A stretch of 64,000 bases of DNA, from contig JABSQV010000005.1 in assembly GCA_013215565.1 (NCBI GenBank), positions 1 through 64,000 on the forward strand. Direction: 5' to 3'. Below are positions 12,210 to 38,605 of this stretch, in pieces. The stretch comes from Myxococcales bacterium (GTDB lineage Bacteria; Myxococcota_A; UBA9160; SZUA-336). The notes below the pieces were generated by a model, which was given only the letters and a program-made list of their open reading frames with translations, did not search any database and was not told where the DNA came from. Position numbers and translations under genes: made by a program. The number at the start of each line of letters is the position of its first letter. Position 1 is the stretch's first letter.

Positions 12210-14330
12210 TCAGTCCACGTAGCCGAGCGCTCGGAGCTTTGCGGCCTGATCGGGATCGATCTCGTGAGGCGATGGCGCATCCGCAGGGGGCGCGGCCGCG
12301 CCGAGTTCGAGTTCGACCCGCTCGGCTTCGCGCTCAGACAGATACGCGTCGAGCAGCGCGCGGAGATCGGCGGCCTCCGCCGCTTTCTCCGGATAGAGGT
12401 CTCGCTGCTCCAACGGATCCTGCCCCAGATCGAAGTAGTGGTAGTCGGTCCCGGGACTCTGCCCGTAGCGAACCAGCCGGCGATCCCCCAGACGCACCGA
12501 GAGCGCGGGGATGCTCCGAGTGAGCCGGCGCAAGTCGAGAGCGAGGCCGCTCGGCACCCAGCTCTCGCTGAAGACCGGTTCCGGCGCCTCCGGCTCAGAC
12601 CCCTCGCCGAGAAGCTCGGGCGCAAAGCTCCTGCCCTTTGCAGAAGGGAGCGGAGGTACGCCAGTCAGGTCGAGCAGCGTCGGCGCAAGTCCGATCTGCC
12701 CGAGCGGGCCCGCCACACGCCGCCCCTCGGGGATTCCCGGTCCCCGCAGCATAAGCGGGACGTGCGTGATCTCGGAAAAGAGCGTCGGCCCGTGACCGAT
12801 GAAGCCGTGCTCGCCGAACTCCTCTCCGTGATCGGAGGTCACGACTACGAGCGTGTTCTCGTCGAGTCCGAGTTCCTCGAGCACCGCGTAGAACTCGCGC
12901 AGGCGATCGTCGGTGAAGCGAATCTCGCGGTCGTAGAGACGTGGATCGAACTCGGCCGGCAGGCTCACGGGTGGCTTTCGACCCTCGGGCAGGTCCGCAA
13001 AGAGTTCTGCGTAGTCTGCGGGCGGCGCGTAGGGATAGTGGACCTGATAGGTGTGCAGGAACAGGAAGAAGCGCTTGTCGCCGTTTCGCTCCAGCCAACT
13101 GCGGGCCCTTCGGAACATGAGTTCGATCTGGCCCCTCGGAAGGAACACGGTCGGACTCTTGTCTTCGAGGTAGGCATCGAAGCCTCGCCCAAAACCGCGA
13201 TCGATCATGAGGGCAGCATTCTCGGTCACGGCTCCGGTGCGAAAGCCGTGCGCCCGAAACTGCTCGGCCACGGTCACAGCGCCGGGAACGAGTTCGCGAA
13301 GCTGTCCGGCTTTGACTCCGTGCGCGGAGGGGTTCAGGCCCGTAAACGCCGTCATGTGTGCGGGCGCCGTGGTCGCGGCCGCGGCTTCCAGTTGCTCGAC
13401 GACGGTGCCTCCCTTCGCAAACGCTTCCTCCAGGAAGGGCGCCGTCTCGAGCGGGTAGCCGTAACTGTTCAGATGATCCGCGCGAAGCGTGTCGAGCGAG
13501 ATCAGGATCAGGTTCACATCGCCGTCCCGACGCAGCCCGGTCTTGTAGAGGGTCGGGGTCGACCAGACCGGGAGAGAGAAGCCGCCCGCGTCGTCGCGCA
13601 GCCGGGTCGTGGAGAGTCGGAGCGAGGCTTCGCGCCCGGCCCAGCGTGAGAGAGAAACCACCTCGTCGCGCCAGCCCGAGCCGCCCTCCGGGGGGGATTC
13701 GAGGGGATCCAGCGTGGACCGGAACAGCTCTTCACAGGCGCCGTCGCTGCAGACTTCGAGCAGAAACTCTACAGGGCCCTGGTCCCGCGCGAGTTCGAGC
13801 ACCCCGTAGCCGAATTCGAGGCGCGCACCGGGTGGGATCGGAACAGCTTGGGTCTGGTAGCTGCCCCGGTCCGATTCGGGCAGCACGGTGGCCCGGACGA
13901 GGATCGGGACACGCTCCCCGGCCGATCTGGGCGGGAAGACCACCTTCACCTCGAGGGTCAGCCTCTCTCCCTCTGGCTTGAGCGTGCGCACCTTCTGCGG
14001 AACCGGGTGAGCCCTTCCGCGGTACATAAAGCGCCCGTCCGTCACCACCCGCGAGGGCGCCCCGAGCGCCTCCGGCAATTGAATCCGCTTCTCGAACTGC
14101 TCGCTGGCGGAAATTTTCGTTCCGAAGGTGGCCAGCACGTGGGCACTGGGGTGCCCCCGGAACACGTAGCGCGTCTCGGCCCCGATCGTCTCGACCGGCA
14201 ACTCGCCGCCGGCTGCAGCCACCGCCTCCGCATCGACGAAGATCCGCTCGCGCTGCAGATAAGTTTCGCCGTCTCTACACCCGAGCGTACAGGTAAGCAG
14301 TGCGGCCGCGATCCACAGGGCACGCTTCAT
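12210..14330 (-). CDS. sulfatase-fold (PF00884-type) lipoprotein, predicted hydrolase with Thr at the nucleophile position
   Basis: ATG 14330 gives lipoprotein leader MKRALWIAAALLTCTLGC; LISLDTLRADHLNSYGY, ATTAPAHMTAFTG and VVTSDHGEEFGEHGFIGHG motifs. Confidence 0.85.
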   Translation of the reverse strand: MKRALWIAAALLTCTLGCRDGETYLQRERIFVDAEAVAAAGGELPVETIGAETRYVFRGHPSAHVLATFGTKISASEQFEKRIQLPEALGAPSRVVTDGRFMYRGRAHPVPQKVRTLKPEGERLTLEVKVVFPPRSAGERVPILVRATVLPESDRGSYQTQAVPIPPGARLEFGYGVLELARDQGPVEFLLEVCSDGACEELFRSTLDPLESPPEGGSGWRDEVVSLSRWAGREASLRLSTTRLRDDAGGFSLPVWSTPTLYKTGLRRDGDVNLILISLDTLRADHLNSYGYPLETAPFLEEAFAKGGTVVEQLEAAAATTAPAHMTAFTGLNPSAHGVKAGQLRELVPGAVTVAEQFRAHGFRTGAVTENAALMIDRGFGRGFDAYLEDKSPTVFLPRGQIELMFRRARSWLERNGDKRFFLFLHTYQVHYPYAPPADYAELFADLPEGRKPPVSLPAEFDPRLYDREIRFTDDRLREFYAVLEELGLDENTLVVVTSDHGEEFGEHGFIGHGPTLFSEITHVPLMLRGPGIPEGRRVAGPLGQIGLAPTLLDLTGVPPLPSAKGRSFAPELLGEGSEPEAPEPVFSESWVPSGLALDLRRLTRSIPALSVRLGDRRLVRYGQSPGTDYHYFDLGQDPLEQRDLYPEKAAEAADLRALLDAYLSEREAERVELELGAAAPPADAPSPHEIDPDQAAKLRALGYVD

Positions 14331-25669: not shown

Positions 25670-25744
25670 TGGTAGGCACGGCCGGGATTGAACCGGCGAC
25701 CCCTACCGTGTCAAGGTAGTGCTCTTCCACTGAGCTACGTGCCT
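25670..25744 (-). tRNA. tRNA-Val (anticodon GAC), CCA encoded
   Basis: Minus-strand AGGCACG TA GCTC AGTGGAAG AGC A CTACC TTGACAC GGTAG GGGTC GCCGG TTCAATC CCGGC CGTGCCT A CCA folds as a complete cloverleaf. Anticodon loop TTGACAC gives GAC. Confidence 0.95.
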
Positions 25745-35268: not shown

Positions 35269-36708
35269 TCAGACCACGGGAAGCTGCAGCTCGCGCGGCG
35301 CGGGGCCGCGGGGTGCCTGCAGCTGCTCCAAGTTCTCGCCAGCGCGTTGCGCGGTCGCTTCGCCGAGCAACGAGTGAGGCGTGACGGAGGTGATCCGAAC
35401 CTCGGCGAAGACGCCCGCAGGAACGGGCTGCGGGGCGGTAAAGTTCACGATCCGGTGCTCCGGACAGCGGCCGGTCTGTTGTCCGCCCCCGTGGCGGCTC
35501 GCGCCCTCGACCAGGACGCGGGTGAGGCTGCCGAGCCGGGCGGCATGGGCGCGTTCAGTCAGCTCCGCCTGGAGCCGCTGCAGGCGCTCGAGGCGAGCCT
35601 GCGCCCGCTCCGGGTCGACCGGAGACAGCCCTCGCCGGACGGCTGGCGTCTCGGGCCGGGGCGAGTACTTGAAGGCGTAGCTGTCCACGAAGGCCACCTC
35701 GCGCACCAGGCTGAGGGTCGCCTCGAAGTCCTCGGGCGTCTCGCCCGGGAAGCCCACGATCAGGTCGGTCGTCAGCGCGAGCCCGGGACGTGCGCGGCGC
35801 AGCCCGGCTACGATCTCGAGGTAGCGGGCGCGCGTATAGCGCCGGCCCATCCGCTCGAGGACGCGATCGGACCCCGACTGAACCGGGAGGTGAAGGTGGG
35901 GGCAGAGTTCGGAGACCTCCGCGTAACAGGCCTCGAGTTCGGGGGTCATGAAGAGCGGGTGCGGGCTGGTGAAGCGGATCCGCTCGATCCCGGGAAGCTT
36001 GGCCAGCCTGCGGATCAGCTCGGCGAAGCTCACCTCGCCCGGCGCCCGTCCCGGCCGCGGGCGTCCGTAGGCATTCACGGTCTGCCCGAGCAGCGTGACC
36101 TCGACCACGCCTTTGGAGGCGAGCTCGCGCACCTCCTCGAGGATCGAGTTCGCGGGCCGACTGATCTCGCGGCCGCGTGTCCGCGGCACGACGCAGTAGG
36201 CACAGAACAGGTCGCAGCCTTCCATGACCGTGACGAAGGCCCGGCCCGGGGAGCGGGGCCCGAAGTCGGGGTGCCGTTCCGGGAGGTCGAAGCGCGCGTC
36301 CGACTCCTCGTAGTCGACCCTGAGGCTCCGGGCGCCCTCACCCGCCGCCCGAATCATCGCGGGCAGCGAACGGAGATTCTGGGATCCGAAGACGAAATCG
36401 ATGCCCGGGAAGCGCGCGAGCAGGCCGTCCGCCTCCTGCTGCGCCACGCAGCCGCCGACCCCGAGGATCAGATCCGGACGCTGCTGTTTGAGGGCACACA
36501 GCACGCCCAGCTCCGAGTAGAGCCGCTGCTCGGCCCGCTCGCGAACCGAGCAGGTGTGGACCACCACGACGTCGGCCCCGACCGCATCGGCGGCGGGCCG
36601 GAGCCCCTCATGGTGGAGAAGATTTGCCATCTTCTCTGCATCGTGCTGATTCATCTGGCACCCGAAGGTGCGTAGGTGAAAGCGCTTGTGCCGCTGCCCT
36701 CGCCGCAT
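35269..36708 (-). CDS. miaB: tRNA-2-methylthio-N6-dimethylallyladenosine synthase
   Basis: FGCQMNQHDAEKM, radical-SAM CDLFCAYC, C-terminal TRAM-like region. Confidence 0.95.
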   Translation of the reverse strand: MRRGQRHKRFHLRTFGCQMNQHDAEKMANLLHHEGLRPAADAVGADVVVVHTCSVRERAEQRLYSELGVLCALKQQRPDLILGVGGCVAQQEADGLLARFPGIDFVFGSQNLRSLPAMIRAAGEGARSLRVDYEESDARFDLPERHPDFGPRSPGRAFVTVMEGCDLFCAYCVVPRTRGREISRPANSILEEVRELASKGVVEVTLLGQTVNAYGRPRPGRAPGEVSFAELIRRLAKLPGIERIRFTSPHPLFMTPELEACYAEVSELCPHLHLPVQSGSDRVLERMGRRYTRARYLEIVAGLRRARPGLALTTDLIVGFPGETPEDFEATLSLVREVAFVDSYAFKYSPRPETPAVRRGLSPVDPERAQARLERLQRLQAELTERAHAARLGSLTRVLVEGASRHGGGQQTGRCPEHRIVNFTAPQPVPAGVFAEVRITSVTPHSLLGEATAQRAGENLEQLQAPRGPAPRELQLPVV

Positions 36709-36853: not shown

Positions 36854-36870
36854 GTCAAATCGCATTTGAC
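36854..36870. promoter_or_regulatory. 17-bp palindrome GTCAAATCGCATTTGAC overlapping a -35 box (candidate operator)
   Basis: Perfect 7+3+7 inverted repeat; its right arm forms most of TTGACA at 36866-36871. Confidence 0.6.
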
Positions 36871-36893
36871 ATCTATTTCTCGCCGTGCATAAT
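36866..36893 (+). promoter_or_regulatory. predicted strong sigma70-type promoter
   Basis: TTGACA (36866-36871), 16 nt spacer, CATAAT (36888-36893). Confidence 0.7.
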
Positions 36894-36899
36894 CTGGAG

Positions 36900-37106
36900 A
36901 GGTAAGGGTTGATTGGTGGCCAGACGGGCACTTCTCGGACCCTTCGCAGCCAGGAGGTTTCCGGCCCAAACCGAGCTTTTACGGAGAAGGCGGTGGAGAC
37001 GACATTTCTTCTTTGAAATGTCCAACCTCTCACCCCCCACAGTCGCCACCGCCCTCTCCGACCCCTAAACGGCCCCCGGCAGAAATCGCCGGGGGCCGTT
37101 TTCTTT
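36900..37106 (+). ncRNA. orphan structured non-coding RNA candidate, about 205 nt
   Basis: Bounded by promoter and intrinsic terminator; no plausible ORF; 36982-37000 pairs with 37042-37060 (17 of 19 positions), inner perfect hairpin GACATTTC-TTCTTT-GAAATGTC (37001-37022). Confidence 0.65.
37067..37106 (+). terminator. intrinsic terminator, possibly bidirectional
   Basis: AAACGGCCCCCGGC (37067-37080) / GCCGGGGGCCGTTT (37088-37101), 7 nt loop, followed by TCTTT. The opposite strand could serve the vwa gene ending at 37196. Confidence 0.85.
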
Positions 37107-37195: not shown

Positions 37196-38605
37196 CTAGA
37201 GCAGCAGCCGATCTACCATTCGGGAGAGCTGCTTCAGGTTGCGGCACTCCTCGGCGACGTCGCAATAGGGCAGGTAGCGGTCCATCACGCTGTCCCCAAA
37301 GCCCCAGGCGCCCGGAGCTTCGGGGTTGATCCAGACCACGTTCTTGGCCTTGCGGTGGATTTCCCGGAGGCACCACGCGCGCGGATCGTTGTAGTTGTTG
37401 CGGGCGTCGCCAATGATCACGACCGTGGTCCGGCTGTCGACGGCGGAGAGGAAGTCGCGCCAGAAGACGTGGAAGGCGAAGCCGAAGTTCGAGCGCGTGT
37501 ACACGTTCACGACCCCGCCACCATCGAGCGACTGGTCGATCCCCTGGTAAATGTCGTTGTCGCGCATGACCTGCGTGACCTCACCGAGTTCCGCGACGAA
37601 CACGAAGCTGCGGATCTTGGTGAAGGCCTCCTGCAGGCTGTGGACGAACTGGAGCATAAACCGAGAGACGTTCGCGACCGAACTCGAAACGTCACACAAT
37701 ATGATGAGTTTCGGGCGTTCCTTCTTCCGTTGCTTGAAGATGAGTTCAAACGGAATCCCGCCGTGGGCCATGTTTCGGCGCATCGTTCCCTTGAGGTCGA
37801 ATTTCCCCTTCCGCTGGCGCTTGCGGCGGATCGTGATCACGTTCTTGAGCTTCTGAGCGAGCCGGGCGACGAGCTCCCGCATGCGACGGATGTCTTCCTC
37901 GGTCAGGTTGTAGAAGCTCTTCTCCTGCAGGCTCTCGCGCCGAAACCGCTCTAGGTAGTCGTGGTTCTGTTTGTCGAGTTCCTGCTCGACGAACTGCCGC
38001 ACGGAGCGCCGCACGGCGTCCTGGACCGCCTGCATGAGCCGGCCCAGCTGTTCGAGTTCCTCTTCTCCCATCCCGGCCTCGCGCAGCTGGTCGATCAACT
38101 CCCGCAGATCGCCCCCTGCCCCCTCCAGTCCCATCTGCTCGATCATCCGGCGGCTGAAGAAACCGATCTGGAGCAGGTTCTGGATCCGCTCGATCCCGGT
38201 CTCGTCGGCCGCGTCGCGGATCATCTGCTCCAGCTGATTCGGGTCCATCGAGAGCATCGCCTTGGCCAGATCCGACAGGTCCACGTCCATGTTCTCGAGC
38301 ATCTGCCGCAGCGCCTCGAGCAACTGATCGAGGTCGACGTGATCCGGGAGGCCTCCGGTCGCCTGGCCCAACTGCTCCCGGAGCGCGTCGTGAAAGCCGG
38401 ACCAGTACAGGTCGAACAGCCGATCGTAGGTCGGGATGTCGTCGGAGCGCTTGACCATGGTCGCGCGCAGCGCGTCCTTGAACAGCTCCCGGTCGTCGAG
38501 GCTGAGTTCGTCGAGCGCCGCGAAGGCGTCGAGCGACTCGGCGACCGAGACCCGGACACCGGACTTCCGGAGCAGGTTCGTGAAATCGACGATTTTCTTC
38601 TGCAC
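37196..38605 (-). CDS. VWA domain-containing CoxE-like protein
   Basis: KLIILCDVSSSVANVSRFMLQF MIDAS motif (DxSxS); paired with MoxR ATPase upstream. Confidence 0.88.
   Translation of the reverse strand: MQKKIVDFTNLLRKSGVRVSVAESLDAFAALDELSLDDRELFKDALRATMVKRSDDIPTYDRLFDLYWSGFHDALREQLGQATGGLPDHVDLDQLLEALRQMLENMDVDLSDLAKAMLSMDPNQLEQMIRDAADETGIERIQNLLQIGFFSRRMIEQMGLEGAGGDLRELIDQLREAGMGEEELEQLGRLMQAVQDAVRRSVRQFVEQELDKQNHDYLERFRRESLQEKSFYNLTEEDIRRMRELVARLAQKLKNVITIRRKRQRKGKFDLKGTMRRNMAHGGIPFELIFKQRKKERPKLIILCDVSSSVANVSRFMLQFVHSLQEAFTKIRSFVFVAELGEVTQVMRDNDIYQGIDQSLDGGGVVNVYTRSNFGFAFHVFWRDFLSAVDSRTTVVIIGDARNNYNDPRAWCLREIHRKAKNVVWINPEAPGAWGFGDSVMDRYLPYCDVAEECRNLKQLSRMVDRLLL

Follow-up and report, generated by a model that had tools for sequence, protein, structure and literature searches.

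What is encoded between miaB and the VWA/coxE-like gene of the window, the whole 64,000-nt stretch of DNA analysed here, and what might its product do? A first-pass annotation had proposed a standalone structured RNA of about 205 nt, possibly of an undescribed family, transcribed on the plus strand from a TTGACA-N16-CATAAT promoter, folded into a hairpin with a one-sided C-rich bulge, and ended by a 14-bp terminator hairpin with a T-rich tail. The promoter, hairpin and terminator all lie where that annotation had placed them (Table 1). As read from the sequence, TTGACA (36866-36871) and CATAAT (36888-36893) flank a 16-nt spacer, and this near-consensus promoter is the sole sigma-70-like site in the 551 bp scanned, compared to 0.0 expected from shuffles; the transcript start is predicted near 36900. 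The 207-nt predicted transcript has a folding energy of -99.5 kcal/mol (z = -6.1, equalled by 0 of 200 shuffles). Its outer helix joins CGGAGAAGGCGGTGGAGAC to GTCGCCACCGCCCTCTCCG with two mismatches and its inner hairpin pairs perfectly, leaving CAACCTCTCACCCCCCACA (37023-37041) unpaired, with a mean unpaired probability of 0.998 in the predicted fold. Fourteen perfect pairs make up the terminator stem (37067-37101), which precedes the T-rich tail and has a folding energy of -30.4 kcal/mol; a simple terminator scan did not list it, though its fold is clear.

Table 1. Features of the small RNA locus and its neighbours (positions in the window).
Feature	Position	Strand	Basis
miaB, divergent neighbour, constant in all relatives	35269..36708	-	Pfam Radical_SAM, UPF0004, TRAM; synteny
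Promoter TTGACA-N16-CATAAT	36866..36893	+	Sequence reading, promoter scan, relatives
Leader of hypervariable sequence and length, likely dispensable	36900..36981	+	Alignment of relatives
Outer helix, 5' arm	36982..37000	+	Fold; changes on both sides of pairs in relatives
Inner hairpin GACATTTC-TTCTTT-GAAATGTC	37001..37022	+	Fold; re-paired in L082, L093 and phage copies
C-rich single strand CCAACCTCTCACCCCCCA, proposed antisense segment	37022..37039	+	Invariance, unpaired probability, complementarity
Outer helix, 3' arm	37042..37060	+	Sequence reading, fold, covariation
Intrinsic terminator, 14-bp stem and T-rich tail	37067..37106	+	Sequence reading, fold
VWA/coxE-like gene, convergent neighbour	37196..38605	-	Pfam VWA_CoxE; synteny

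In the window scan with Rfam 15, no family reached its gathering score within the locus, where only sub-threshold matches appeared at a lax threshold, so that the proposed novelty is not refuted; six diverse members of the family likewise gave no Rfam 15 match. ARAGORN and Rfam placed no tRNA or tmRNA at the locus, the only tRNA in the window being a tRNA-Val at 25670-25744. A strong promoter, a single copy and a length of about 200 nt would also suit a diverged housekeeping RNA such as 6S, but RF00013 has no match here and is found at separate loci in two genomes (G007 and G024) that also carry the present RNA. We therefore rejected 6S, as the first-pass annotation had done, and with no Rfam match at the locus or in relatives we give a diverged housekeeping RNA next to no likelihood.

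By DNA search, 49 of 60 relatives have the core, and a covariance model built on 67 distinct copies of the RNA found the gene in 76 of the 91 genomes of the window's class. It is single copy except in the isolate ANT-51 (G031), whose two copies (L044 and L082) each lie beside a miaB and are more likely to come from an assembly of mixed strains than from a duplicated gene. In the other 15 genomes the model had no match; they comprise one with a diverged copy (G011, discussed below), two in which a DNA match runs into a contig end (G001 and G039), four whose assembly breaks within miaB (G042, G054, G061 and G087), six with only miaB fragments, paralogues or nothing (G002, G004, G021, G032, G051 and G065), and two that were not traced further (G059 and G066). 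Because most of them lack an intact miaB locus in the assembly, absence of the RNA within the class looks to be mostly an assembly matter. Among 378 genomes drawn from the phylum, we found no convincing model match outside the class; one weak match (G277, 29 bits) was rejected because its hairpin falls within a local repeat, and pattern matches L032, L060, L045, L075 and L086 (Methanothrix, an alphaproteobacterium and two more) lack the structure. The named records are MAGs that mostly bear the label Deltaproteobacteria or Myxococcota, with UBA9160, UBA4427, UBA6930 and SZUA-336 among them, and we infer that the class carrying the RNA is GTDB class UBA9160. The gene is divergent from miaB wherever the contig reaches that far, and coxE-moxR-ribBA usually follows it on the other strand, with extra genes inserted on the coxE side. 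Beyond this constant adjacency in a conserved gene neighbourhood, there was no sign of a miaB-specific role.

Promoters of near-consensus quality precede the hairpin in 58 of 71 distinct copies from the class, compared to 1 of 71 shuffled regions. The first 80 or so nucleotides are hypervariable across relatives and almost absent in some, with the -10 box of L070 and L087 ending only 7 nt before the hairpin. Since the leader is unconserved and can be this short, the functional RNA is probably the hairpin (about 80 nt) plus the terminator, at whose position relatives have a GC-rich hairpin of different sequence; the plus-strand small RNA gene thus stands, with its conserved part narrowed from the proposed 205 nt to these two elements. 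A hand-written structure pairs in 95% of alignment cells, whereas sliding the partners gives no more than 54%, and both sides have changed in 8 pairs among the aligned copies, a signal of covariation that common descent may partly explain. Several inner pairs changed together in L082, L093 and the phage copies, and G-U cells in the helices outnumber A-C cells (108 versus 37), which favours the plus strand as the RNA. The near-invariant part of the RNA is its unpaired strand, CCAACCUCUCACCCCCCA; the segment AACCUCUCACCCCCCA, including AACCTCTCACCCCCCA, is invariant in the 67 aligned copies. Some of these copies came from scans that required most of the strand, whereas the 49 DNA-search matches did not. 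The open strand stays constant while the helices change, including the re-paired helices of the phage copies. With its own conserved promoter, a single copy, helices with the compensatory changes that the first-pass annotation had named as support, and no Rfam match, the locus is a genuine small RNA gene that, to our knowledge, had not been described before; its transcription is inferred.

Copies of the RNA also occur on two related viral contigs from IMG/VR, flanked by the same pair of phage genes in each (L160, 3140-3215; L172, 1520-1595); their inner hairpins are new and their C-rich strand is the same. The genes of L160 include those for a phage clamp, clamp loader, dUTPase and amidase, and the contig resembles T4-like phages. 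On two more IMG/VR contigs, L167 (665-760) and L170 (about 13600-13730, minus strand), the C-rich strand sits in a new outer stem of the right shape, in L167 just upstream of a serine-recombinase-like gene; their membership in the family is possible but unproven. We attributed the viral match L159 to chance, along with L165, L166, L168, L169 and most other viral pattern matches.

The complement of the strand, UGGGGGGUGAGAGG, resembles a Shine-Dalgarno sequence, and the reverse complement of the strand, UGGGGGGUGAGAGGUUGG, has the look of a ribosome-binding site with a start codon after it. Elsewhere in relatives, several near matches fell on translation starts; the remaining ones have no family-like fold and were dismissed. 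A class-wide, gene-blind search for GGGGTGAGAGNATG returned 18 matches, of which those before recognisable genes (named by reading the translations) precede ftsZ (3), ftsA (2), Lys-rich histone-like genes (2), fabH, pilC and a membrane protein gene. Searches with 18-mers and 14-mers of the complement gave no clear numerical excess per genome over controls, and for this reason we rejected the idea of one dedicated target that is complementary over a very long stretch. The signal lies in the position of complementary sites relative to gene starts, not in their number per genome. Two other starts deserve mention as possible further targets: that of glmM in the window (62801, minus strand), which reads GGGGGGCGUGGAGG and has a predicted duplex with the strand of -23 kcal/mol, and that of a response-regulator gene (AVDDQRYFRELI...) near guaB/miaB, which is repeatedly G-rich (L070, L087, L091, L101 and L122).

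We located ftsZ in 85 genomes and took the surrounding regions from 80. Runs of at least 5 G occur at the ftsA site in 66 of 73 genomes and at the ftsZ site in 60 of 63, and runs of at least 6 G in 51 of 73 and 50 of 63, respectively. Both sites could be scored in 59 genomes, 53 of which have at least 5 G at both and only two of which (G003 and G051) have it at neither. At control starts, runs of at least 6 G occur in 4 of 245 cases from the same regions and in 10 of 372 from around miaB, giving 101 of 136 for ftsA and ftsZ versus 14 of 617 for other starts (Fisher p = 2e-78). Such p-values overstate independence because the genomes share ancestry, and serve as a guide rather than a probability; the start codons of ftsZ and of the controls were picked by a generic anti-Shine-Dalgarno rule and are not known. 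Perfect complementarity of at least 10 is found at 52 of 136 fts sites versus 1 of 245 controls, and the mean predicted duplex is -21.7 kcal/mol at fts sites versus -10.9 kcal/mol at controls, a contrast matched by 0 of 300 shuffled strands. Bases after the G-run at fts sites follow the complement of CUCUCA. The predicted duplexes in the window's genome are -28.8 kcal/mol for ftsA and -22.0 kcal/mol for ftsZ, with the match in the window's own family lying mainly in the G-run and less in the UGAGAG part. The ftsA and ftsZ sites of E. coli show no match to the strand.

G011, a genome of a divergent family, has an RNA at the matching position upstream of miaB (model match E = 7e-4), in which the outer stem is re-paired (GGAGGAGCGACGGA/UCCGUCGCUUCUCC) and the strand reads CAAUCCCCCCCCC; a plain DNA search of the other genomes found no relative of this diverged RNA. 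Its ftsA site, GGGGGGAUU, is the exact complement of AAUCCCCCC in its own strand, and the predicted duplex is -19.7 with that strand compared to -15.2 with the canonical one. As judged by this complementarity, RNA strand and ftsA site have changed together in G011. In G051, from the same family, no RNA was found in an assembly that is 74% complete, and the sites at ftsA and ftsZ are plain, making a natural loss of the whole circuit possible. In G003 the RNA is present and its strand intact (L006 and L126), yet the ftsA and ftsZ sites (L216) are ordinary, which makes this genome an unexplained exception.

We consider it likely, with a probability of roughly 0.78, that the RNA is a trans-acting antisense RNA that occludes the ribosome-binding sites of ftsA and ftsZ; transcription, pairing in the cell and repression are all inferred. 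A strong promoter would drive a small RNA that acts in trans on the two mRNAs, in which the closed outer helix and small inner hairpin would hold the C-rich strand open on one side. The strand core CUCUCACCCCCC would pair with GGGGGGUGAGAG, the unusual Shine-Dalgarno region that lies immediately before the start codons of ftsA and ftsZ, ribosomes would be blocked from starting, and less FtsA and FtsZ would be made. The RNA probably controls cell division, and the phage copies are inferred to be used to hold back division of the host. Two properties of a trans-acting small RNA are met, namely a promoter and terminator of its own away from the targets (which lie on other contigs, as with C71 versus C100 in G000) and a conserved unpaired segment complementary to the target start regions. 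Because the comparison of fts sites does not extend to sister classes that lack the RNA, the G-run could predate the RNA or be independent of it. That both division genes keep a hexa-G site so that one invariant antisense RNA can read them and set FtsA and FtsZ levels together, and that lytic T4-like phages use re-stemmed copies to shut down host division, is a more tentative proposal to which we give slightly under even odds.

The strand may instead be a general Shine-Dalgarno blocker of a larger regulon with G-rich starts, in which ftsA and ftsZ are only the most constant members. The occurrence of the search pattern before two histone-like genes, fabH and pilC fits this, as do the G-runs at glmM in the window and at the recurrent response-regulator gene near guaB. 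However, G-runs are rare across the 617 other starts and no other gene recurs like ftsA and ftsZ in the data examined, leaving the larger regulon a serious possibility but not one we favour. We consider it unlikely that the strand's partner is a protein or the ribosome, with the complementarity to ftsA and ftsZ a by-product of these genes' preference for G-rich Shine-Dalgarno sequences: although the strand is conserved at every base, including a CCAA that pairs only partly with the start codon region, and although G-rich motifs are generally favoured at ribosome-binding sites, other genes of the same clusters have no G-run, the bases beyond the G-run follow the complement, and G011 shows a concerted change. 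We also find it very doubtful that the RNA activates FtsA and FtsZ or sets their ratio, for example by protecting the mRNAs or by keeping an inhibitory structure from forming. The essentiality of both genes and the apparently strong expression of the RNA suit tuning more than a switch, but the predicted duplex covers the ribosome-binding site, an arrangement that is repressive in DicF and DinR (PMC5069750, PMC10907235).

Antisense occlusion of the ftsA and ftsZ ribosome-binding sites remains our preferred reading, and the co-change of RNA and target in a divergent lineage, together with phage-owned copies, makes RNA control of division testable by reporter swaps. The analysis also suggests a route to such circuits from sequence alone, by searching for invariant strands whose complements read as odd ribosome-binding sites.

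Small RNAs with C-rich loops, such as RsaE/RoxS, pair an unpaired C-rich segment with Shine-Dalgarno regions; they differ from the present RNA in architecture and hosts, with sequence comparison limited to the Rfam scan. Among cell-cycle RNAs, EcpR1 targets dnaA and gcrA and is not known to act on the fts genes. EcpR1 is a broadly conserved trans-acting small RNA of Sinorhizobium that acts on the cell cycle (PMC4414408), an alphaproteobacterial RNA unlike ours. StfZ of E. coli is an antisense RNA to ftsZ (PMC9628754); it is a cis-antisense RNA opposite the ftsA-ftsZ junction, whereas the present RNA is encoded elsewhere. A close likeness is to DicF, a small RNA of the E. coli Qin prophage that pairs with the ftsZ ribosome-binding site and represses translation, being 53 nt long, processed from an mRNA and Hfq-bound, with ftsZ, xylR and pykA as reported targets (PMC5069750). 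Both would act against the ftsZ ribosome-binding site and both are phage-linked, and a phage-borne anti-ftsZ RNA would parallel prophage-encoded DicF (PMC5069750). Unlike DicF, however, the present RNA has its own promoter and terminator, is a class-wide core gene, is matched to ftsA as well as ftsZ, and carries its strand in a one-sided bulge. DinR of Klebsiella pneumoniae occupies the ftsZ ribosome-binding site, with pairing confirmed by compensatory mutations, and is a LexA-controlled, Hfq-dependent RNA released from the 3' end of the dinI mRNA (PMC10907235); we predict the same occupancy at ftsZ and claim no similarity of sequence or structure. The putative mechanism would thus be like that of DicF and DinR in an unrelated family with two targets, as nothing we found makes the RNA a member of either, a judgement that rests on differing origin and gene context and not on direct alignment. 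The antisense controls of ftsZ that we found described belong to enteric bacteria, where the RNA is carried on a prophage, processed from an mRNA or encoded in cis. In the present case, the RNA is part of the core gene set of a whole class, most of it uncultured, and appears to be connected to ftsA as well as ftsZ.
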